The notes under the pieces are model-generated. The model was not told the origin of the DNA, ran no database searches, and saw nothing but the letters and a program-made list of their open reading frames with translations. Below, in pieces: positions 1 to 7,636 of a stretch of DNA of 64,000 nucleotides; the stretch's first letter is position 1, and the number at the start of each line of letters is the position of its first letter. Source of the stretch: Hyphomicrobium sp. NDB2Meth4 (GTDB lineage Bacteria > Pseudomonadota > Alphaproteobacteria > Rhizobiales > Hyphomicrobiaceae). The stretch covers positions 372,001-436,000 of the forward strand of contig NZ_FPEJ01000013.1 of NCBI RefSeq assembly GCF_900117445.1. Reading direction: 5' to 3'. The position numbers and the translations under genes are program-made.

Positions 1-246
1 GAGGACGATGTTCAGCGACCAGATCGCAAACGCAAAGCTGAAGCCTTCGACGCGCCAGACGATCCACCCCGCGATGGCGATCATCACGTAGAGCGCAGTC
101 CACGCCGGCCCGAACACCCACGAAGGCGGCGTCCAGCTAGGCCTGTCGAGGCGTCGATACCAATCCCCGGGCTGAAAAATTGCGCCGCTGAGGCCGACCG
201 CCACCACAATGGCGAGGAACGGCAGGAAGCTGAGCCAATTGTCCAT
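1..246 (-). CDS. tspO: TspO/MBR family protein, 3' end outside the window
   Basis: The minus-strand frame starting with ATG at 246 reads without stops to the window edge (82 codons). After a first hydrophobic helix it shows the TspO signature: GDWYRRLDRPSWTPPSWVFG followed by PAWTALY and a second helix. TspO proteins are five-helix, Trp-rich membrane proteins that bind tetrapyrroles and act in porphyrin and oxidative-stress physiology. The start is supported by the helix that begins immediately (MDNWLSFLPFLAIVV). The gene lies about 97 bases downstream of the Cfa-like gene on the same strand, so it may be the last member of the stress operon beginning near 3667. About half of the usual 150-160 residues is visible, so later residues cannot be checked. 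Confidence 0.88.
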   Translation of the reverse strand, partial: MDNWLSFLPFLAIVVAVGLSGAIFQPGDWYRRLDRPSWTPPSWVFGPAWTALYVMIAIAGWIVWRVEGFSFAFAIWSLNIVL

Positions 247-343
247 GTCCGCTCCTTGCGAAATGAGTTTTTGCCACTCCAGGTGACGCCGCCGCCGCGC
301 ACATCGTGCCAGCGAGAGTGATCAACTCATCGTGGCTCTGCAA

Positions 344-1555
344 CTATGCATGTTCTATTCGGTATAGCCCAACGTCCAACGCTTCGGCGCTGAATCCGGC
401 CTCGCAGTAACACAGATAGTAATTCCAAAGTCGCCTGAATGGCTCATCGAACCCCAACGGCGCTATCTGGCTCCAGCTTGAATTGAAGCGTCGGCACCAT
501 TCAGCTAGCGTACGGGCGTAGCTCGCTCCGAACAGCTCTCGCCGAGTGATCTTCAACCCGGCTGCCGCCGCCTGAGCTTCGATGATTTCGCCCGTAGGGA
601 GGGCACCCCCTGGAAATATCTCCAACTGAATGAAGTCCGGACGGGTTCGGTATGCGTCATAGCGGTCGGCGGCGATCGTGATGACCTGCACGACAGCAAC
701 GCCAGCCGGCGCGAGACAATTGCGCAGCTTTGCGAAGTACTGCGGCCAATACTTTTCGCCCACCGCTTCGAGCATTTCGATGCTCACGATGCGCTCGAAG
801 CGCCCTTCGACGTCTCGATAGTCCTGAAGGCGCACGTCGACACCACCGGCGCGACCTGCGCGCTGCAATCGGTCTGAAGCGTAGGCGCGTTGCTCATGCG
901 AGAGAGTTAGCGCCGTTACGGCGCAGCGATGCGCCACCGCGAGCCTCTCGGCGACGGCGCCCCAGCCGCATCCTATTTCGAGAACCTTCTCGCCGCCGTT
1001 GAGGTCCATCAGCTCGCATACCCGGTCGATCTTCCGCGCCTGTGCGCTTTCGAGAGTGTCGTGAGGCGAGCTGTAGATCCCGGACGAGTAGTTCATCCCC
1101 CCATCGAGCCACTTGGCGTAGAACGCGTTTCCTAAATCGTAGTGAGCGGAGATGTTGCGGCGGCTATTGAAGCGGGAATTTTCACGCCGGTCATGGCGCA
1201 AGCGGTACAATGTGCGGAGAACGGCGTTTCCCCGCGTGGCATTGTTCAGCGCGGCCTCGTTCTCCAGTGCCCAGGTCAGCAACTTGGTGAGATCAGCGGC
1301 GTCCCAGTCGCCGCAGCGGTAGGCCGACGCGAAACCGATGTCGCCCCCCGCCAACAGCCGTGCAAGCGCGCGCCATCGCTTCACATCGATGGATGCGTGC
1401 GTGCCGGGCCGGTCGCCCTCGAGGGTGAGCCTGCTGCCACGAGGAAGTGTTACCGTCAGCCCGCCCGCATCCAGTTGGCCGATCAGTCGCCGCACCATGC
1501 GACCGGCCATCGTCAGCTGCTCTTCGTCGCGTGCGAAATGGGCAAATTCAGACAT
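344..1555 (-). CDS. Cfa-like SAM-dependent fatty-acid methyltransferase (403 aa)
   Basis: A member of the cyclopropane-fatty-acyl-phospholipid synthase family: a variable N-terminal part (1-130), then the catalytic part with the SAM motif EIGCGWG (193-199), LQDYRD (243-248) and a C-terminal lipid-binding region. The family methylates cis double bonds of phospholipid acyl chains at the membrane. Two positions that hold bicarbonate in E. coli Cfa appear changed: the Cys of YSC is Ser158 (YSSG) and the His of LLHT is Gln290 (VVQV); the Glu is kept (Glu263). This suggests a methyl or methylene product rather than a cyclopropane. That is inference from an alignment done by eye. The ATG at 1555 overlaps the upstream DUF1365 stop by 8 bases. 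A longer open frame upstream lies inside that gene and is not credible. Confidence 0.9.
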   Translation of the reverse strand: MSEFAHFARDEEQLTMAGRMVRRLIGQLDAGGLTVTLPRGSRLTLEGDRPGTHASIDVKRWRALARLLAGGDIGFASAYRCGDWDAADLTKLLTWALENEAALNNATRGNAVLRTLYRLRHDRRENSRFNSRRNISAHYDLGNAFYAKWLDGGMNYSSGIYSSPHDTLESAQARKIDRVCELMDLNGGEKVLEIGCGWGAVAERLAVAHRCAVTALTLSHEQRAYASDRLQRAGRAGGVDVRLQDYRDVEGRFERIVSIEMLEAVGEKYWPQYFAKLRNCLAPAGVAVVQVITIAADRYDAYRTRPDFIQLEIFPGGALPTGEIIEAQAAAAGLKITRRELFGASYARTLAEWCRRFNSSWSQIAPLGFDEPFRRLWNYYLCYCEAGFSAEALDVGLYRIEHA

Positions 1556-2321
1556 GCTTGCGCTCGCGTTTCTGCTCGCAATCGCTGGCCGCCACATGAG
1601 GATGGATCGTAAGGCCCTTCCACCACAATCGCACGGCCTCGAAGTGGATCGCTGCAATGACTTTCAAAGTCACCAGCGGATACGTGCACAGCAGTTCCGC
1701 CAAGCGCAGATCTGTTAGCTCCTGACGCTGGGCGTGCAGCACCGTGTTTATGAGCGCCACTCCTTTCTCCGCGCCCGATATGCCCAGCGTCAAAGTTTCG
1801 CCGGGAGGGGCCAAGCGGAAATCGTAGCTCATATCCATGCCCATGAAGGGGGAGACGTAGAACGCCTTTTTGCTGGATTGGCGGATCGTGCCGCCTTCCT
1901 CGGCATTAGCCGCCATCGTGTAGCTGTGCCGCTCGCCGTAGGTATTGTGCACTTCATACACCGTCGCCGCGAGCTCGCCGCTTTGGCGATAGCAGAAGTA
2001 GACGCTCAGCGGATTGAACTGATATCCGAGCACGCGCGGGCTGCACAGCAGGCAGATCCGGCCATCGTCGAAGCTTATTCCTTTGGCGTGAAGCCGGCGT
2101 ACGATCTGATCGCGAAGCGGCGTCTCGTCGTGGCCATAGTCGCCGTCGTGGAACGAGATGAGATTGCCGCGTCGGCGCGAGAAGATCATCAATCGTTTGT
2201 CGAGTGTGTCGATCTCCGCGAGGTCGAGCAACAGCCACCACGCACGATACCGGAAGTGATGGCGGCGAGGATGTAGTCTGCGATGCATGACCCATCCGCT
2301 GTAGATGCAGGACGCGGTCAT
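1548..2321 (-). CDS. DUF1365 family protein (257 aa)
   Basis: Starts MTASCIYSGWVMHRR and carries the DUF1365 pattern: a Tyr/His/Arg-rich N-terminus, a central RVLGYQFNPLSVYFCY segment and a PFMGMDMSYDF-like segment. The biochemical function of DUF1365 is not established. The family is typically found between an FAD amine-oxidase-like gene and a cfa-like gene, as here, and is assumed to work on acyl chains with them. The start at 2321 is coupled to the upstream gene: its stop TGA (2323-2321) shares one base with the ATG (TGATG). This indicates translational coupling in one operon. The open frame extends further upstream but only as overlap with the neighbour. Confidence 0.88.
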   Translation of the reverse strand: MTASCIYSGWVMHRRLHPRRHHFRYRAWWLLLDLAEIDTLDKRLMIFSRRRGNLISFHDGDYGHDETPLRDQIVRRLHAKGISFDDGRICLLCSPRVLGYQFNPLSVYFCYRQSGELAATVYEVHNTYGERHSYTMAANAEEGGTIRQSSKKAFYVSPFMGMDMSYDFRLAPPGETLTLGISGAEKGVALINTVLHAQRQELTDLRLAELLCTYPLVTLKVIAAIHFEAVRLWWKGLTIHPHVAASDCEQKRERKHV

Positions 2322-3667
2322 CAGGCGGCCTCTTCTGACGGGAACACCGGGTCGCGCGGCACGAGGCATATGCGTGCGGATTCTTCGGGAACGCTCCACG
2401 GCCGACGCAGGCCGCCGAGCTGTTCGGCGACCGCTAGACCCGCCTGCAGACCATCCTCGTGGAACCCCGCGCCGAAGTAGGCTCCGCAGAACCAGGTGTT
2501 GCGCCGCCCCTGCAGCGTCCATAGTTCGCGTTGCGCCCGATGTGCCGCTGCATCGAAGATGGGGTGCGAGTAGGATTCCGTGCGGATGACTGAGCGGGGC
2601 GTGCGCTGGGGATCGAGGGTCACGAACAGCGGGCGGTCTTCCGGCAGGCCTTGCAGGCTATTCATCCAGTAGGTTACGTGCGCACTCCCTTCCGGGCCGC
2701 CAGTCTGCACATAGTTCCAGCTCGACCAGACACTGCGCCGCTTCGGCATCAGAGCGCTGTCTTGGTGCAGAACAGCCTCGTTTTCGCGATAGCGAATAGC
2801 GCCCAGCAGCCGCTCCTCATCCAAGCTCGGCTCTCGCAGCAGAGCCAGCGCCTCATCGGAATGGGTCGCGATCACGACGTGATCAAAGCTGGCCTTGCCT
2901 CCGTCCGCCTCCAAGACCTCAACTCCGGCGTCGGAACGAGTTATCGATGCAACGCGCGCATTCTTGCGCACATCGCCTCGAAGTTCTTCCAGCAGCTTGT
3001 TGACGTATGTCCTGCTGCCGCCACTAACGGTGCGCCATTGAGGGCGGTCTCGCAATAGCAGCAGACCGTGATTGTCGAAAAAGCGAACGAAAGCTGCTGC
3101 AGAGCAGTCCAGCATCGACACCGCCGGGGCAGACCAAATGGCGGCCGCCATCGGCAGAAGGTGATCGCTCAGGAATGCATCGCGGTAATTGTTCTGTCGC
3201 AGGTACTCTCCGAGCGTTAGGCCGTTAAGCCTGTCACGCCGAAGATCGCCGGGAGCATCACGGTAAAACCGGCGCAGGTCGGACAACATGGCCCAAAACC
3301 GCGGCCTCAGCACATTCGTCCGCTGGGCGAATAAGGTCGCCAGGCTGGTGCCCGCATATTCCAAACCGCCATCGCAGCGCGACACCGCAAACGACATCTC
3401 GCTAGGTTGGGTTGTTACGCCGAGATGGGCGAACAGCGCGGTGAGATTTGGATAGTTGGGCGGGTTATAGACGATGAACCCGGTGTCGACCGGCAGATCT
3501 CCGCCTGCGCCCGGTACATCTACCGTATTGCTGTGGCCGCCCGCCCGGCCGGCTTTCTCGTAGACGGTAACGTCGTGGCGCTTGCTCAGGAGCCACGCCG
3601 CGGCAAGTCCGGAAATCCCGGTCCCTACGACCGCGATCCGCAAGCGTCCTTTAGTAGATCGGAACAT
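2321..3667 (-). CDS. FAD-dependent amine-oxidase-like oxidoreductase (448 aa)
   Basis: The N-terminus has a Rossmann FAD site, GTGISG at 15-20, followed by VYEK (Glu37) and RAGGHSNT, as in COG2907-type NAD/FAD amine oxidases and phytoene-desaturase-like enzymes. A second FAD-contact segment lies near the C-terminus (WFCGAYFGAGFHEDGLQAG). The length fits the family. The substrate is unknown. In operons with cfa-like and DUF1365 genes it is a good candidate for a flavin-dependent acyl-chain desaturase or oxidase. It is the first gene of the minus-strand operon. The ribosome site AGGGGG sits 4 bases before the ATG, and a TGATCC box on this strand lies about 60 bases upstream of the start. Confidence 0.87.
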   Translation of the reverse strand: MFRSTKGRLRIAVVGTGISGLAAAWLLSKRHDVTVYEKAGRAGGHSNTVDVPGAGGDLPVDTGFIVYNPPNYPNLTALFAHLGVTTQPSEMSFAVSRCDGGLEYAGTSLATLFAQRTNVLRPRFWAMLSDLRRFYRDAPGDLRRDRLNGLTLGEYLRQNNYRDAFLSDHLLPMAAAIWSAPAVSMLDCSAAAFVRFFDNHGLLLLRDRPQWRTVSGGSRTYVNKLLEELRGDVRKNARVASITRSDAGVEVLEADGGKASFDHVVIATHSDEALALLREPSLDEERLLGAIRYRENEAVLHQDSALMPKRRSVWSSWNYVQTGGPEGSAHVTYWMNSLQGLPEDRPLFVTLDPQRTPRSVIRTESYSHPIFDAAAHRAQRELWTLQGRRNTWFCGAYFGAGFHEDGLQAGLAVAEQLGGLRRPWSVPEESARICLVPRDPVFPSEEAA

Positions 3668-3725
3668 TCGGCCCCCTGATAAGCCTCAGCTGCCAGTAGG
3701 GGTGCAACGACCGTCCCAGCGGCTT

Positions 3726-3785
3726 GGATCACTCACTAGGCGCGGCATGCCCAGTGATCCAGGCGGGCAGGCTCGACGTTAATGC
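3726..3785. promoter_or_regulatory. Divergent ECF11 (RpoE/ChrR-type) promoter region
   Basis: On the plus strand TGATCC (3755-3760), a 19-base spacer and TAATGC (3780-3785) fit the -35/-10 pattern known for Rhodobacter RpoE promoters. Transcription would start near 3792, about 100 bases before the sigma-factor ATG. On the minus strand a second TGATCC (3731-3726) points towards the FAD oxidoreductase operon. The hexamer at the matching distance there is TTGCAC or TGCACC, a poor -10, so the minus-strand promoter is less certain. This arrangement would let the sigma factor drive both operons and itself. Confidence 0.55.
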
Positions 3786-3830
3786 TGCATGCGCGCTATG
3801 GGCTTGACAGTCAGGGTGACTCCAAAGCTA

Positions 3831-3855
3831 TCCGGATCATGTATCGTGATCCGGA
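3831..3855. promoter_or_regulatory. Perfect 9-bp inverted repeat in the sigma-factor leader
   Basis: TCCGGATCA (3831-3839) and TGATCCGGA (3847-3855) are exact reverse complements separated by 7 bases. Each arm contains a TGATCC -35 hexamer, one on each strand, but no -10-like TAA follows at 18-19 bases on either side. The palindrome lies 38 bases upstream of the sigma-factor start, downstream of the predicted promoter. It could be an operator for a dimeric regulator, a hairpin in the 5' untranslated RNA, or a decayed promoter pair. Confidence 0.5.
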
Positions 3856-3893
3856 ACCGCCATTCATCAGCACGAGCTCCATGGCTCCAACTC

Positions 3894-4460
3894 ATGCCTG
3901 ACGAAAGCGCCATTGCCACGCACGATCATGCGTCTCTGATCGTCGCGGTGGCGAAAAATCGTGATCGGATCGCGTTCGCTGAGCTGTTCAATCACTTTGC
4001 TCCGCGGATTAAGGCATTCCTCCTTCGGGGGGGAACACCAGCCGAACTGGCCGAGGAGCTGGCGCAGGAAGCAATGCTCATCGTGTGGCGAAAGGCGTAC
4101 CTGTTCGATCCCGCAGGTGCGAGCGCCTCCGGATGGGTCTTTCGAATTGCGCAGAACCTGCGCATCGACGCCGCGCGGCGGGCGCAGAGAGCAGATCGTA
4201 TCGCCACTGAGTTCGCGGTCGAGCCAGCAGAAGTCGATGCTCCCGAGGCCGTCGTCGACGCCGTGCAGCTGGAAGAGAAAGTCCGGTCCGCAATGGCGCA
4301 GCTGTCGCCAGAGCAACTCAAAGTTATCACCCTGTCGTTCTTCGAAAGCCGCCCCCACGCAGAAATAGCGGCAATCCTCAAGCTGCCGCTTGGAACCGTG
4401 AAGTCGCGTATCAGGCTGGCGTTTCTTCGACTGCGCGCGCTGCTCGACGAGGTCGCATGA
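3894..4460 (+). CDS. rpoE: ECF RNA polymerase sigma factor, RpoE/ChrR (ECF11) type (188 aa)
   Basis: Region 2 is visible as LAQEAMLIVWRKAYLFDP, followed by WVFRIAQNLRID. Region 4 is visible as LSPEQLKVITLSFFES and GTVKSRIRLAFLRLR. The next gene is a ChrR-type zinc-cupin anti-sigma factor that starts within the stop codon (ATGA), which assigns this sigma factor to the ECF11 group. In Rhodobacter the homologous pair answers to singlet oxygen. The ATG at 3894 is preferred: starts at 3789 or 3798 would lie on top of the predicted transcription start, and the extra residues do not resemble a sigma factor. I see no strong ribosome site. Confidence 0.93.
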   Translation: MPDESAIATHDHASLIVAVAKNRDRIAFAELFNHFAPRIKAFLLRGGTPAELAEELAQEAMLIVWRKAYLFDPAGASASGWVFRIAQNLRIDAARRAQRADRIATEFAVEPAEVDAPEAVVDAVQLEEKVRSAMAQLSPEQLKVITLSFFESRPHAEIAAILKLPLGTVKSRIRLAFLRLRALLDEVA

Positions 4461-5101
4461 CTCCGACCCACCATCCGAAGGAAGAGAAGCTGCTCGAATA
4501 TTTTTCGGGCTCCCTCGACGAAGGCATGCGCCTCGTTGTTGCGGCGCACTTGGAAATGTGTCCGTCCTGCCGGCGGCTGCTGGCTGGCCTCGAAATTGCG
4601 GGCGGGACCTACCTGGACGGTCTGCCAGCAGCGCCGCTGGGAGAACACGCGCTGGAACGCGTACTCTCACGCCTCGATGAAAGCGAAGTCAGCCAGCCCG
4701 CGCCGCGTGCGCAAGCAGCTAATGACCTGCCCGTGCAAATCCGTGCCCTTGCGCCACATCAGCTTGGCCGCTGGCGTTGGATCGGACCGGGCGTCTATTG
4801 GCGCAGCGTCACGCTCTCACAACAAGGACCTATGCGTGTCTTCCTGCTGAAAGCAGCGCCGGGCACGCAGCTGCCTCAGCACACGCACGATGGGACCGAG
4901 CTGACTGTCATACTGCAAGGCGCGTTCCGCCACGAAGGAGGGCGCTTCGGAGCCGGTGACTGTGACGACGCTGACGACACTGTCGAGCACCGTCCCGCCG
5001 TCGAGGAAGGCGAGGAGTGCATCTGCCTCGTCGCAATGGAAGGCAACATCCGGTTGCGCGGGTTCTTGGGACGTCTCATCCAACCATTAGTACGCTTGTG
5101 A
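4457..5101 (+). CDS. chrR: ChrR-type anti-sigma factor with zinc anti-sigma and cupin domains (214 aa)
   Basis: The N-terminal zinc anti-sigma domain has His6, His31, Cys35 and Cys38, the same spacing and numbering as the zinc site of Rhodobacter ChrR. The C-terminal cupin has a second metal site: His142, His144 and Glu148 in QHTHDGTE, then His178. In Rhodobacter the N-terminal domain holds the sigma factor inactive and the cupin domain is needed for release by singlet oxygen. The start overlaps the sigma stop (ATGA), as expected for stoichiometric production. All metal ligands are present, so the protein is probably functional. Confidence 0.94.
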   Translation: MTPTHHPKEEKLLEYFSGSLDEGMRLVVAAHLEMCPSCRRLLAGLEIAGGTYLDGLPAAPLGEHALERVLSRLDESEVSQPAPRAQAANDLPVQIRALAPHQLGRWRWIGPGVYWRSVTLSQQGPMRVFLLKAAPGTQLPQHTHDGTELTVILQGAFRHEGGRFGAGDCDDADDTVEHRPAVEEGEECICLVAMEGNIRLRGFLGRLIQPLVRL

Positions 5102-5106
5102 TCGCT

Positions 5107-5931
5107 ATGACCGTGACCGCGTTTCTTCAGGCGTTCGTCCTCATTTCTCTCGCTCTTTCGGCTGTGATGACCCTGGCCTGGCTCATTCAGCAGCGCACGG
5201 GCAATTCCGGCTGGGTGGACACAGTATGGACGTTCGGTTTGGGAATGGTCGGCGCAGCGGCAGCCCTCGCTCCTGTGGCACACATGGAGCATTCCTGGCG
5301 CCAGTTCGTCGTTGCCGCCTTCTTGGCGACCTGGGCACTGCGGCTTGGTCTGCACATCGCCCGGCGCACCGCGGGCATTACCGACGATCCCCGCTATGCG
5401 GCGCTGATCGACGGTTGGGGCGCATCGGCGCGGTCAGAGATGTTTTGGCTGCTGCAGAAGCAGGCGCTCATCAGCATTCCCCTGGCGACGGCCGCGTTCA
5501 TCGCTGCGCACAATCCAGATCCCCAGCTTCGCATCGGCGACGCGATCGCCATTCTGGTTATGATCACCGCAATCGCCGGAGAGGCTGTTGCTGACGAGCA
5601 GTTGCGCCAGTTCCGCGCCGTTTCGCACGGGGCTCATGGCATCTGCGACGTGGGTCTGTGGCGGTACTCGCGGCACCCGAACTACTTTTTCGAATGGCTG
5701 GGTTGGACGGCGCTCCCATTGCTGGCGATCAATCTGTCGGGCGATTACCCATGGGGCTGGCTCGCGTTGGTTGCGCCGGCGTGCATGTACTGGATCCTCG
5801 TCCACGTTTCCGGCATCCCGCCGCTCGAAGAGCACATGCTGCGCACGCGCGGGGCGGCGTACAAATCCTACCAACAAAGAACGAGCCCGTTCTTTCCACT
5901 TCCTCCGGTTAAGCGAGGTGCAACGACATGA
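5107..5931 (+). CDS. DUF1295 membrane protein, steroid 5-alpha-reductase-like (274 aa)
   Basis: A multi-helix membrane protein with the DUF1295 hallmarks: an early GWVDTVWTFG segment, a central DEQLRQFRA, and the C-terminal GLWRYSRHPNYFFEWLGW motif shared with steroid reductases and isoprenylcysteine methyltransferases, followed by PPLEEHMLRTRG and a late Tyr. Relatives reduce double bonds or methylate lipids using a bound nucleotide or SAM; the substrate here is unknown. The ATG at 5107 lies 5 bases after the chrR stop. The stop overlaps the next ATG (ATGA). The gene is therefore in the rpoE-chrR transcription unit and probably acts on membrane fatty acids. Confidence 0.88.
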   Translation: MTVTAFLQAFVLISLALSAVMTLAWLIQQRTGNSGWVDTVWTFGLGMVGAAAALAPVAHMEHSWRQFVVAAFLATWALRLGLHIARRTAGITDDPRYAALIDGWGASARSEMFWLLQKQALISIPLATAAFIAAHNPDPQLRIGDAIAILVMITAIAGEAVADEQLRQFRAVSHGAHGICDVGLWRYSRHPNYFFEWLGWTALPLLAINLSGDYPWGWLALVAPACMYWILVHVSGIPPLEEHMLRTRGAAYKSYQQRTSPFFPLPPVKRGATT

Positions 5932-6968
5932 ACCTTGCCGCCTTGGCAACGACGGCCGCCGACCGCTTGTCTCTTCCCGATGCCTTGACCCGGTACGGTA
6001 TCAAGGCGCTTGTCGGCAGAACCAGCCGGGCGCTCGATGGCGCCGGTTCGCAGGCAACCCGGCGCTTCGCCGCCGACATGCGCGACCAGCCCATCGCCTC
6101 GTTCGTCGAGGACGCCAACGCACAGCACTACGAGGTCCCGGCTCAATTCTTCGACATTGTCCTGGGACCGAGGCGCAAGTACTCCTGCTGCTATTACGTC
6201 AATCCGAACGATACTCTTTCCAACGCTGAGGTCGCGAGCCTTGCGCTTACCGCCGAGCACGCCGATCTGCGCGACGGACAGGACATTCTGGAACTTGGCT
6301 GCGGCTGGGGCTCCCTTTCGCTTTGGATGGCGACGCGAAATCCGCGGTCTCGCATCCTGGCCATTTCCAATTCAGCTTCGCAGCGGGCATTTATCGAGAA
6401 CGAAGCGGCGCTGCTCGGACTGACGAATCTTGAGGTGCGAACGCAAGATGTGAACACGTTCGCGCCGGAGCGGACATTCGACCGTATCGTTTCGGTCGAG
6501 ATGTTCGAACACATGGAAAACTGGCGCACACTTCTTGCGCGCATGCGCACGTGGTTGAACCCCGGCGGGCGCGCTTTCGTGCACGTCTTCGCGCATCGCG
6601 CCGCGCCCTACCGCTTTGACCACGGCGATCCGTCTGACTGGATCGCCCAGCATTTCTTCACTGGCGGCATGATGCCAAGCCGCAAGCTGATGTACGAGTT
6701 CGCCGATCTATTCGAGGTCGAGCAGAGCTGGTGGTGGCCGGGCACACACTACGCCCATACCGCGCGCGATTGGCTGCGTAACCTCGATGCGAACAGGCAG
6801 CGCGTCAAAGAGGTGTTGCAGCCGACTTACGGCCCCGAGACTGATATGTGGGTTCGCCGGTGGCGGCTCTTCTTCCTCGCAACATCAGGATTGTTCGGCT
6901 ACGCGGACGGGCGCGAATGGGGCGTCGCCCACTACCGATTGAAGCCGCCCGGCTTGCGCGGCTTTTAG
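5928..6968 (+). CDS. Coclaurine N-methyltransferase-like Cfa-family methyltransferase (346 aa)
   Basis: A SAM-dependent methyltransferase of the cyclopropane synthase superfamily, closest by eye to the coclaurine-N-methyltransferase branch: RRKYSCCYY (82-90), LELGCGWGS (121-129), SNSASQRAFI, FDRIVSVEMFEHMENW and QHFFTGGMMPS. Unlike the first Cfa-like enzyme at 344-1555 it keeps the YSC cysteine (Cys87) and the EMFEH glutamate/histidine. The two enzymes are therefore not simple duplicates. In bacterial ECF11 clusters such proteins are thought to modify acyl chains; a second methylation, as in dimethyl furan fatty acids, is one possibility. The start overlaps the DUF1295 stop, and the 3' end overlaps the convergent DUF2177 gene by 4 bases. 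Confidence 0.88.
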   Translation: MNLAALATTAADRLSLPDALTRYGIKALVGRTSRALDGAGSQATRRFAADMRDQPIASFVEDANAQHYEVPAQFFDIVLGPRRKYSCCYYVNPNDTLSNAEVASLALTAEHADLRDGQDILELGCGWGSLSLWMATRNPRSRILAISNSASQRAFIENEAALLGLTNLEVRTQDVNTFAPERTFDRIVSVEMFEHMENWRTLLARMRTWLNPGGRAFVHVFAHRAAPYRFDHGDPSDWIAQHFFTGGMMPSRKLMYEFADLFEVEQSWWWPGTHYAHTARDWLRNLDANRQRVKEVLQPTYGPETDMWVRRWRLFFLATSGLFGYADGREWGVAHYRLKPPGLRGF

Positions 6969-7381
6969 CGGATACCGAAATGCTGACCGATCATGGCGGC
7001 GAGCACGGCCACCAATCCTGCGACCATGCCAGAGACGATCAGCCCGTAGGCCATATCGATCACTGTGATCTGCAGCGTCCAGTTACGCAACGTGGCGTAG
7101 TTGGTAAGTTCGTATGTTCCGTACGCGAAGAGGCCGAACAGCGCGCCGTAAAACACCGCAATCCAGGGCGACCCGCCCTTCAGGGCCGGCGCAATCGCAA
7201 AGATGACGAGACCTGCCGGGTACATCAGATAGAAGGCAAAGGCGGGCAGCATACGGATTTCGTCGCTCAGAATGTCGCCGAGCGTCTGCTTGTAGAGCTT
7301 CGCCCCCATGGTCGTAAGCCAGAGCATGTCGAAGGCCGCAAAGATCACGAACGTCAGTGCATATGCGATTGCGTACAGCAT
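6965..7381 (-). CDS. DUF2177 family membrane protein (138 aa)
   Basis: A small protein with about four membrane helices starting MLYAIAYALTFVIFAAFDMLWL and containing KLYKQTLGDIL, FYLMYPAGLVIF, FGLFAYGTYELTNYATL and VIDMAYG, the DUF2177 pattern. Its function is unknown. The family often occurs next to cfa-like and amine-oxidase-like genes of this kind of stress cluster. The ATG at 7381 is chosen because GGAGG lies 4 bases upstream; the earlier in-frame ATG at 7402 lacks a site. I found no TGATCC-type promoter upstream on this strand. Confidence 0.85.
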   Translation of the reverse strand: MLYAIAYALTFVIFAAFDMLWLTTMGAKLYKQTLGDILSDEIRMLPAFAFYLMYPAGLVIFAIAPALKGGSPWIAVFYGALFGLFAYGTYELTNYATLRNWTLQITVIDMAYGLIVSGMVAGLVAVLAAMIGQHFGIR

Positions 7382-7636
7382 GCATCCTCCGCGGCCTGGC
7401 ATCTATGAATGGAAAACGCGCGACAGGGCGGTTTAGATCACGCCATTCTTGCCTGATGGTCCCAAAACGGCCCGACATCTGACCGTGAACTTGGCCAGCA
7501 CCCAGGAACTAAGTGGGGCGCCCCGCGATATTGGACCGCTGGTGGTGCGGCGGCCCTGCGCTCGCCAAATGCGGCGAGGTGGCTTAGGTAAGCGGACGGG
7601 CCGCACGTCTCGCGGCGCTTAACGCAAGGCAACCGC

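Follow-up and report, generated by a model that had tools for sequence, protein, structure and literature searches.

A compact Hyphomicrobium locus with homologues of the dimethyl furan fatty acid route beside a putative singlet-oxygen switch, and two membrane protein families that follow fufM

What do two genes for cyclopropane-synthase-like methyltransferases do next to a sigma factor, its ChrR anti-sigma factor and a group of membrane or redox genes, at one end of a stretch of DNA from Hyphomicrobium sp. NDB2Meth4? The stretch, called the window here, comprises 64,000 nucleotides (G000:C4:372001-436000) of a 4.08-Mb assembly estimated to be 100% complete, and the genes in question lie at its positions 1 to 7381. 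A first-pass annotation had proposed that the locus makes furan fatty acids under the control of a sigma/ChrR switch that responds to singlet oxygen. Homology supports this proposal: the locus is very likely a self-contained singlet-oxygen regulon for furan fatty acids, a judgment that covers the regulon and the pathway, not the reaction of its DUF1295 protein. It is based on gene content, homology, a tree of the methyltransferases, promoter sites and conserved linkage.

All domains named in the annotation are present in the proteins of positions 1 to 7381, and all exceed their Pfam cut-offs. Two gene sets diverge from about position 3740, and the regulator pair, homologues of ufaD, ufaO, ufaM and fufM, and a DUF2177 gene lie within one 7-kb locus. 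This grouping is far beyond chance, because the same genes cluster in many other genomes. The regulators had been described as flanked by two coupled sets; both sets are present, but the DUF2177 gene is convergent and not part of the plus-strand set, and tspO, 97 bp downstream of ufaM on the same strand, is not a conserved partner of these genes. In the list below, the start of DUF2177 at 7381 was chosen from an alignment with relatives, and the sigma factor start at 3894 is preferred over 3789, as the longer frame would begin directly behind the -10 element.

1..246, minus strand: tspO, truncated by the window edge (complete gene G000:C4:371779-372246; PF03073, 7.7e-42)
344..1555, minus strand: ufaM-like gene of the CMAS family, predicted S-adenosylmethionine (SAM)-dependent fatty-acyl methylase for the first methylation of an unsaturated phospholipid chain
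1548..2321, minus strand: ufaO-like gene with DUF1365 (PF07103, 1.4e-78), predicted oxygen-inserting, furan-forming step
2321..3667, minus strand: ufaD-like gene for an FAD protein (Amino_oxidase/NAD_binding_8), predicted desaturase of the methylated chain
3706..3731, minus strand: putative ECF11-type promoter of ufaD-ufaO-ufaM (TGATCC-N16-CGTT)
3755..3780, plus strand: putative ECF11-type promoter of rpoE-chrR-DUF1295-fufM (TGATCC-N16-CGTT)
3894..4460, plus strand: extracytoplasmic function (ECF) sigma factor, probably RpoE/ECF11 type (Sigma70_r2 and r4)
4457..5101, plus strand: ChrR zinc anti-sigma factor with cupin (TIGR02451, ligand positions)
5107..5931, plus strand: DUF1295 membrane protein, steroid 5-alpha-reductase/ICMT superfamily (Pfam Steroid_dh)
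5928..6968, plus strand: fufM-like gene, the second CMAS-type gene, predicted furan-ring methylase from mono- to dimethyl furan fatty acid
6965..7381, minus strand: DUF2177 gene, small predicted membrane protein, convergent to fufM (PF09945, 5.9e-41)
7415..7440, minus strand: weaker ECF11-like site upstream of DUF2177 (TGATCT-N16-CGTT, 9/10 positions)

The enzymes of the pathway have been established in Rhodobacter sphaeroides and Rhodopseudomonas palustris CGA009 as UfaM (RSP2144/RPA2569), UfaD (RSP1091/RPA2571), UfaO with its DUF1365 domain (RSP1090/RPA2570) and FufM (RPA0924) (PMC7380195). All four R. palustris genes of that report have homologues in the window, with ufaD-ufaO-ufaM (RPA2571-2569) in the same order. 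Identity to G005, a genome of R. palustris type, is 52.6% for UfaD, 44.6% for UfaO, 43.0% for UfaM, 59.8% for FufM and 56.2% for the DUF1295 protein. G005 is one of 16 genomes of its genus and holds a MatB 100% identical to PDB 4fuq, which we take to be R. palustris MatB. Its three CMAS loci, referred to as slots, come in the order that one would expect of RPA0924, RPA2569 and RPA3082; a DUF1365 gene and an FAD gene precede the second of them. The CMAS gene in the RPA3082 slot (L108, G005:C1:3395681-3396492) is interrupted by an in-frame TGA.

Tree and identity assign the methyltransferases; for UfaD and UfaO, the assignment uses identity together with gene order. The ufaO-like gene is the sole DUF1365 match in the Hyphomicrobium genome, and among solved structures its profile found only a designed protein (E 0.52). 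On these grounds, the window holds homologues for every step of the route published for dimethyl furan fatty acids. The first-pass annotation had suggested aligning the FAD, DUF1295 and DUF1365 proteins with UfaD, UfaO and FufM and had considered most of the domains of unknown function to lack an assigned reaction. The FAD protein corresponds to UfaD and the DUF1365 protein to UfaO, but the DUF1295 protein matches none of the four enzymes, and DUF1365 does have a published reaction, as UfaO (PMC7380195).

The two methyltransferases bear directly on a simpler account, that of an ordinary cyclopropane fatty acid island in which they would make cyclopropane or other branched chains and the remaining genes would be membrane-stress housekeeping. 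Both proteins match Pfam CMAS, and NCBIfam likewise ranks cyclopropane fatty acyl phospholipid synthase first for both, as expected for such an island, but with 239 and 132 bits these hits fall far under the cut-off of 400. The UfaM-like protein is 30-34% identical to the Cfa-type proteins and fragments compared (27.5% for one further fragment) and carries E-A-V-G where Cfa-type proteins carry E-H-[VI]-G, the UfaM rows shown having E-A-[VI]-G; the FufM-like protein carries EHM without VG at this motif and is 58-60% identical to the R. palustris FufM slot. A tree of 76 CMAS proteins unites all 49 FufM rows in a group with support 100 and all 22 UfaM rows in another with support 95, and the methyltransferases of the window and of Rhodopseudomonas fall within both groups. 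The tree was built by a quick method with SH-aLRT values only, from rows labelled beforehand by profiles seeded from the window proteins; support for the split among the five Cfa rows is 79, and the broken G005 gene (two fragments) and duplicate loci were excluded. Motif, identity and tree all argue against plain cyclopropane synthases, and this reading was rejected. Against the island also stand three further full-length CMAS genes elsewhere in the genome (G000:C15:536869, C14:23922 and C4:440883), two of which group with Rhodopseudomonas Cfa while the third forms a long branch. Altogether, we consider a cyclopropane island very improbable.

The proposal of the annotation that the second methyltransferase is a second methylase is borne out by its place in the FufM group and its identity to the FufM slot. 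Among solved structures, the nearest relatives of this protein are plant N-methyltransferases of the coclaurine type (6gkv, E 4.6e-64), with Cfa of the E. coli type (6bqc, 6e-24) further away. This agrees with the resemblance between FufM and Arabidopsis AT4G33110 described in PMC10940516. One of the three further CMAS genes lies about 5 kb beyond the window end and adjoins an acyl-CoA-ligase-like gene.

The regulator pair agrees with its description in the annotation, in that ChrR has zinc anti-sigma and cupin domains and all eight metal-ligand positions are filled (H6, H31, C35 and C38; H142, H144, E148 and H178), the ligand list being that of Rhodobacter ChrR (PMC6852236). ChrR passes TIGR02451 (199.5 bits, cut-off 124.5) and stays below the cut-off of the equivalog NF051881 (218 against 300 bits). 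The sigma factor is probably of ECF11 type, as assigned by its ChrR partner and its promoter. In Pseudomonas syringae, the ChrR-partnered sigma factor has the promoter consensus TGATCC-N16-CGTA (PMC5507510), and Shewanella promoters of the same kind are similar (PMC4336711). The window sites match the P. syringae consensus in the -35 hexamer, the spacing and the CGT, with T at the tenth position where the consensus has A. They stand back to back in divergent orientation, and the count of two exact TGATCC-N16-CGTT sites compares with a mean of 0.13 in shuffled windows.

Genome-wide, there are 19 exact sites, and only the two in the window lie outside predicted frames with a frame start at most 350 bp downstream. 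Sixteen lie inside predicted frames, four of them also with a frame start within that distance; one of the sixteen, L161, sits in a predicted frame of only 119 amino acids. The remaining site, L171, lies outside frames but has no frame start within 350 bp. The frames used for this placement are longest-open-reading-frame guesses. The 19 sites are no proof of a wide regulon, because a uniform-base estimate gives about 16; a reversed-pattern control gave one site, a count that is probably biased low as the reversed pattern contains CTAG, which is rare in such genomes. In the other fufM loci surveyed below, strand-bases upstream of cluster genes make up 3.5% of the sequence and contain 6 of the 12 exact sites. 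When the pattern is relaxed to spacings of 15-17 bp, there are 29 hits, both window sites included, against 15 in shuffles, and sites with at least 9 of 10 positions number 10 in the window against 4.9, all shuffles preserving single-base content only. The site before DUF2177 is weak alone; an exact promoter-type site lies upstream of DUF2177 in the locus L122.

The locus shares the sigma/ChrR pair, ufaD, ufaO, ufaM and the promoter type with the RpoE-ChrR regulon of R. sphaeroides (RSP1087-1093, RSP2143-2144). It differs in the photolyase: the annotation saw none, and this holds across the assembly for PF03441 (0 matches), other photolyase families not having been searched. The published eight-gene core regulon, as quoted in PMC5507510, lists neither fufM, DUF1295 nor DUF2177.

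Whether these three belong together can be read from other genomes. Of 387 genomes of the class, 14 hold FufM-like genes, with E-values of at most 2.3e-92 against at least 7.9e-34 for all else reported; in the phylum, 37 of 397 genomes do, all at 1.2e-95 or better in a search limited to E 1e-60. The two genome sets overlap and both include the Hyphomicrobium genome itself, and the gap between FufM and Cfa comes from the class search alone. We mapped 46 other fufM loci, which span the phylum, using profiles made from the window genes; several end at contig ends, so that the counts are lower bounds, and loci from the same family cannot be counted as independent. Of the 46 loci, 35 have DUF1295, 31 of them as the same-strand neighbour of fufM, and in each of 22 families it is found at one fufM locus or more. 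The other counts are 27 for ufaD, 27 for ufaO, 19 for ufaM, 14 for DUF2177, 14 for the sigma factor, 12 for chrR and none for tspO, the full set except tspO being present at seven loci. When all predicted genes at these loci were grouped without labels, no other family occurred at more than 11, and the family at 11 loci is an ABC transporter. A DUF2878 protein (7 loci; e.g. L150:9862-10428), a fatty acid desaturase (7; L146:2389-3336) and a lipocalin-like protein (6; e.g. L109:9397-9960) also recur, each labelled from a scan of one member.

As for the pathway, ufaO is found in 43 of the 46 other fufM genomes (27 at the locus, 16 of the remaining 19), against 194 of 374 in the class. As a control, 40 ufaO loci were taken from genomes without a FufM-grade match; they have the lowest DUF1365 E-values among such genomes of the class, are thus not random and all come from the class, and in three of the genomes (G239, G072, G261) there is a weaker match, of Cfa grade (E 5e-31 to 2e-32). 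DUF1295 and DUF2177 each occur at one of the 40, the same locus L181, against 23 and 13 of the 27 fufM loci with ufaO (Fisher p 7e-13 and 8e-6, ignoring kinship). The sigma factor and chrR are present at 14 and 12 of these 27 and at 15 and 19 of the 40 controls (p 0.32 and 1), with no clear difference. DUF1295 and DUF2177 follow fufM, not the regulator, because they are nearly absent from ufaO loci without fufM while sigma/ChrR is about equally common there. The ufaM gene is rarer at the ufaO-holding fufM loci (19 of 27) than at the controls (38 of 40). TspO was dropped as a pathway member, with 0 of 46 other fufM loci and 1 of 40 controls by a profile made from one sequence, which may miss some tspO genes; its place behind ufaM is probably incidental.

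In both Rhodopseudomonas genomes examined, DUF1295 directly precedes fufM, and RPA0923 is therefore very probably a DUF1295 gene. A strain deleted for RPA0923 is listed in PMC7380195, the excerpts of which give no result for it. In the titles and abstracts of the open-licence papers searched, a tie of DUF1295 or DUF2177 to the dimethyl branch was not found, and it is, as far as these searches show, apparently new.

Against solved structures, the DUF1295 profile matches 7c83, a 3-oxo-5-alpha-steroid 4-dehydrogenase, best (E 6.9e-6), followed by AtTam46 (1.2e-4), the ICMT 4a2n (2.8e-4, C-terminal part) and human SRD5A2 (3.7e-4). We take 7c83 to be a bacterial steroid 5-alpha-reductase and 4a2n an archaeal ICMT. 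Within this superfamily (7c83, 7bw1, 4a2n), the similarity is weak and covers the cofactor half. All 35 aligned sequences have an invariant aspartate and an invariant asparagine that also occur in the reductases and presumably contact NADPH in the human one; a glutamate four places after the asparagine is not conserved (Q in Rhodopseudomonas). The alignment comprises the window protein and 34 of 37 others found (L153, L119 and L121 excluded); that of UfaO comprises the window protein and 25 of 29 others (L153, L131, L129 and L114 excluded), and that of DUF2177 all 15. A single-sequence structure model of the DUF1295 protein has a mean predicted local distance difference test score of 47, too low for a fold comparison. 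Relatives of DUF1295 were not found in the viral contigs searched, and the DUF2177 profile found no solved relative. We think that the DUF1295 protein most likely works as an NADPH reductase embedded in the membrane; its substrate would be the acyl chain, with the reactive dioxo-ene formed from an oxidised furan as the likeliest target.

The match to 4a2n, a methyltransferase, counts against a reductase and opens another reading, in which DUF1295 would be an ICMT-type SAM-dependent membrane methyltransferase working beside FufM, for example on a carboxyl or head group. An NCBIfam hit to isopcys_mtase (1.1e-5), far under its cut-off, points the same way. The best solved relative is nevertheless 7c83, Pfam finds Steroid_dh and no ICMT family, and the two residues shared with the reductases are invariant, so that we regard an ICMT-type enzyme as possible but unlikely. 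Slightly less likely still is that DUF1295 and DUF2177 are unrelated to furan lipids and belong to the regulon as travellers only, serving for instance hopanoid, sterol or quinone modification under oxidative stress. Neither gene is needed for the four published reactions, and L181 retains both in a genome without a fufM match. Travelling with the regulon is at odds, however, with the way both genes track fufM rather than sigma/ChrR at ufaO loci, and with two genomes (G526 and G648) in which a close DUF1295 (56-57% identity) lies away from fufM but about 1.5 kb from ufaO.

Several further observations weigh against the proposed regulon and the place of DUF1295 and DUF2177 in it. FufM makes the dimethyl product alone, in vitro and in R. 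sphaeroides (PMC7380195), so DUF1295 is not needed for the second methylation. Eleven of the 46 fufM loci are without DUF1295; four fufM genomes (G321, G549, G688, G670) have no DUF1295 match at all, and five (G068, G249, G620, G626, G660) have only a distant one (31-34%) away from the fufM locus. The converse is seen at L181:11742-13060, where DUF1295 and DUF2177 stand in a sigma-chrR locus with ufaD, ufaO and ufaM in the genome that lacks a fufM match. Only 7 of 22 families have a fufM locus with DUF2177. Six of the 35 aligned DUF1295 sequences are a distant subtype with an NYFG motif, 25-30% identical to that of the window; this subtype, near fufM in L118, L137, L140, L141, L142 and L149, is perhaps a separate recruitment. 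Finally, the fufM genomes G321, G688 and G670 (L115, L133, L136) have no DUF1365 match, and fufM is therefore not strictly tied to the furan pathway. These three genomes belong to one large-genome genus of the window's order.

The four reactions have been shown by others in Rhodobacter and R. palustris (PMC7380195), and the sigma/ChrR response in Rhodobacter; for Hyphomicrobium we infer both, as we do all action of DUF1295 and DUF2177. In the proposed mechanism, ChrR would keep the sigma factor inactive until singlet oxygen (or organic peroxide) releases it. Once free, the sigma factor would drive transcription from both divergent promoters (3706-3731 and 3755-3780) and perhaps from the site upstream of DUF2177. 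UfaM would then methylate an unsaturated phospholipid chain, UfaD would desaturate the methylated chain, and UfaO would insert an oxygen atom from O2, closing the furan ring. Addition of a second methyl group by FufM would yield a dimethyl furan lipid, a membrane scavenger of singlet oxygen, and DUF1295 and DUF2177 may serve this dimethyl branch.

Steroid 5-alpha-reductases reduce a double bond beside a ketone, and a 1,4-diketone can be turned into a furan by known chemistry. Radical oxidation converts furan fatty acids into dioxo-enes (PMC12595405), and 9M5-FuFA disappears under singlet oxygen (PMC7380195). An R. sphaeroides laboratory strain lacking chrR accumulates 9M5-FuFA. An enone-bond reductase would detoxify the oxidised furan and could restore the furan. 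That DUF1295 makes the furan antioxidant renewable in this way, with NADPH reducing the dioxo-ene to a saturated 1,4-diketone that recloses with loss of water, is a speculative proposal to which we give a small chance.

Compared with known systems, the arrangement is compact. In G005, ufaM and fufM are about 1.7 Mb apart, unlike the single 7-kb locus here, and the stretches examined around these two genes showed no sigma factor gene and no chrR, whereas the window locus has both. The DUF2177 gene within the locus is a further contrast with the R. palustris arrangement. A parallel exists in Chlamydomonas, where 104 genes are induced by singlet oxygen in dependence on SAK1 (PMC4067076). The SAK1 table gives log2 fold values of 5.92 for CFA1, 4.05 for CFA2, 3.50 for DUF1365, 3.25 for DUF2177 and 3.04 for DUF1295, and CFA2 is also annotated as a coclaurine N-methyltransferase (PMC4067076). 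Matched by labels only, this set equals the families of the bacterial cluster minus the regulators, tspO and a separately named UfaD, and it consists of nuclear algal genes under another regulator. In Arabidopsis, one protein resembles both UfaM and UfaD (PMC10940516). A 2021 review brings up a connection of the CFA genes with furan fatty acids and describes the lipid question as under study; its passages on the CFA parallel do not mention DUF1295 or DUF2177 (PMC8491031).

By homology, then, the core of the locus appears to be a known pathway, complete and compactly arranged, that is controlled by a switch of a known type. Homologues of the whole dimethyl furan fatty acid route, together with a likely singlet-oxygen switch, lie within 7 kb and would be convenient for transfer to a laboratory host. 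DUF1295 and DUF2177 gain a concrete candidate assignment, to the dimethyl-furan branch of singlet-oxygen defence. If renewal of the furan by DUF1295 were true, furan lipids would be catalytic rather than sacrificial scavengers in bacteria and algae, and DUF2177 would be a membrane helper.

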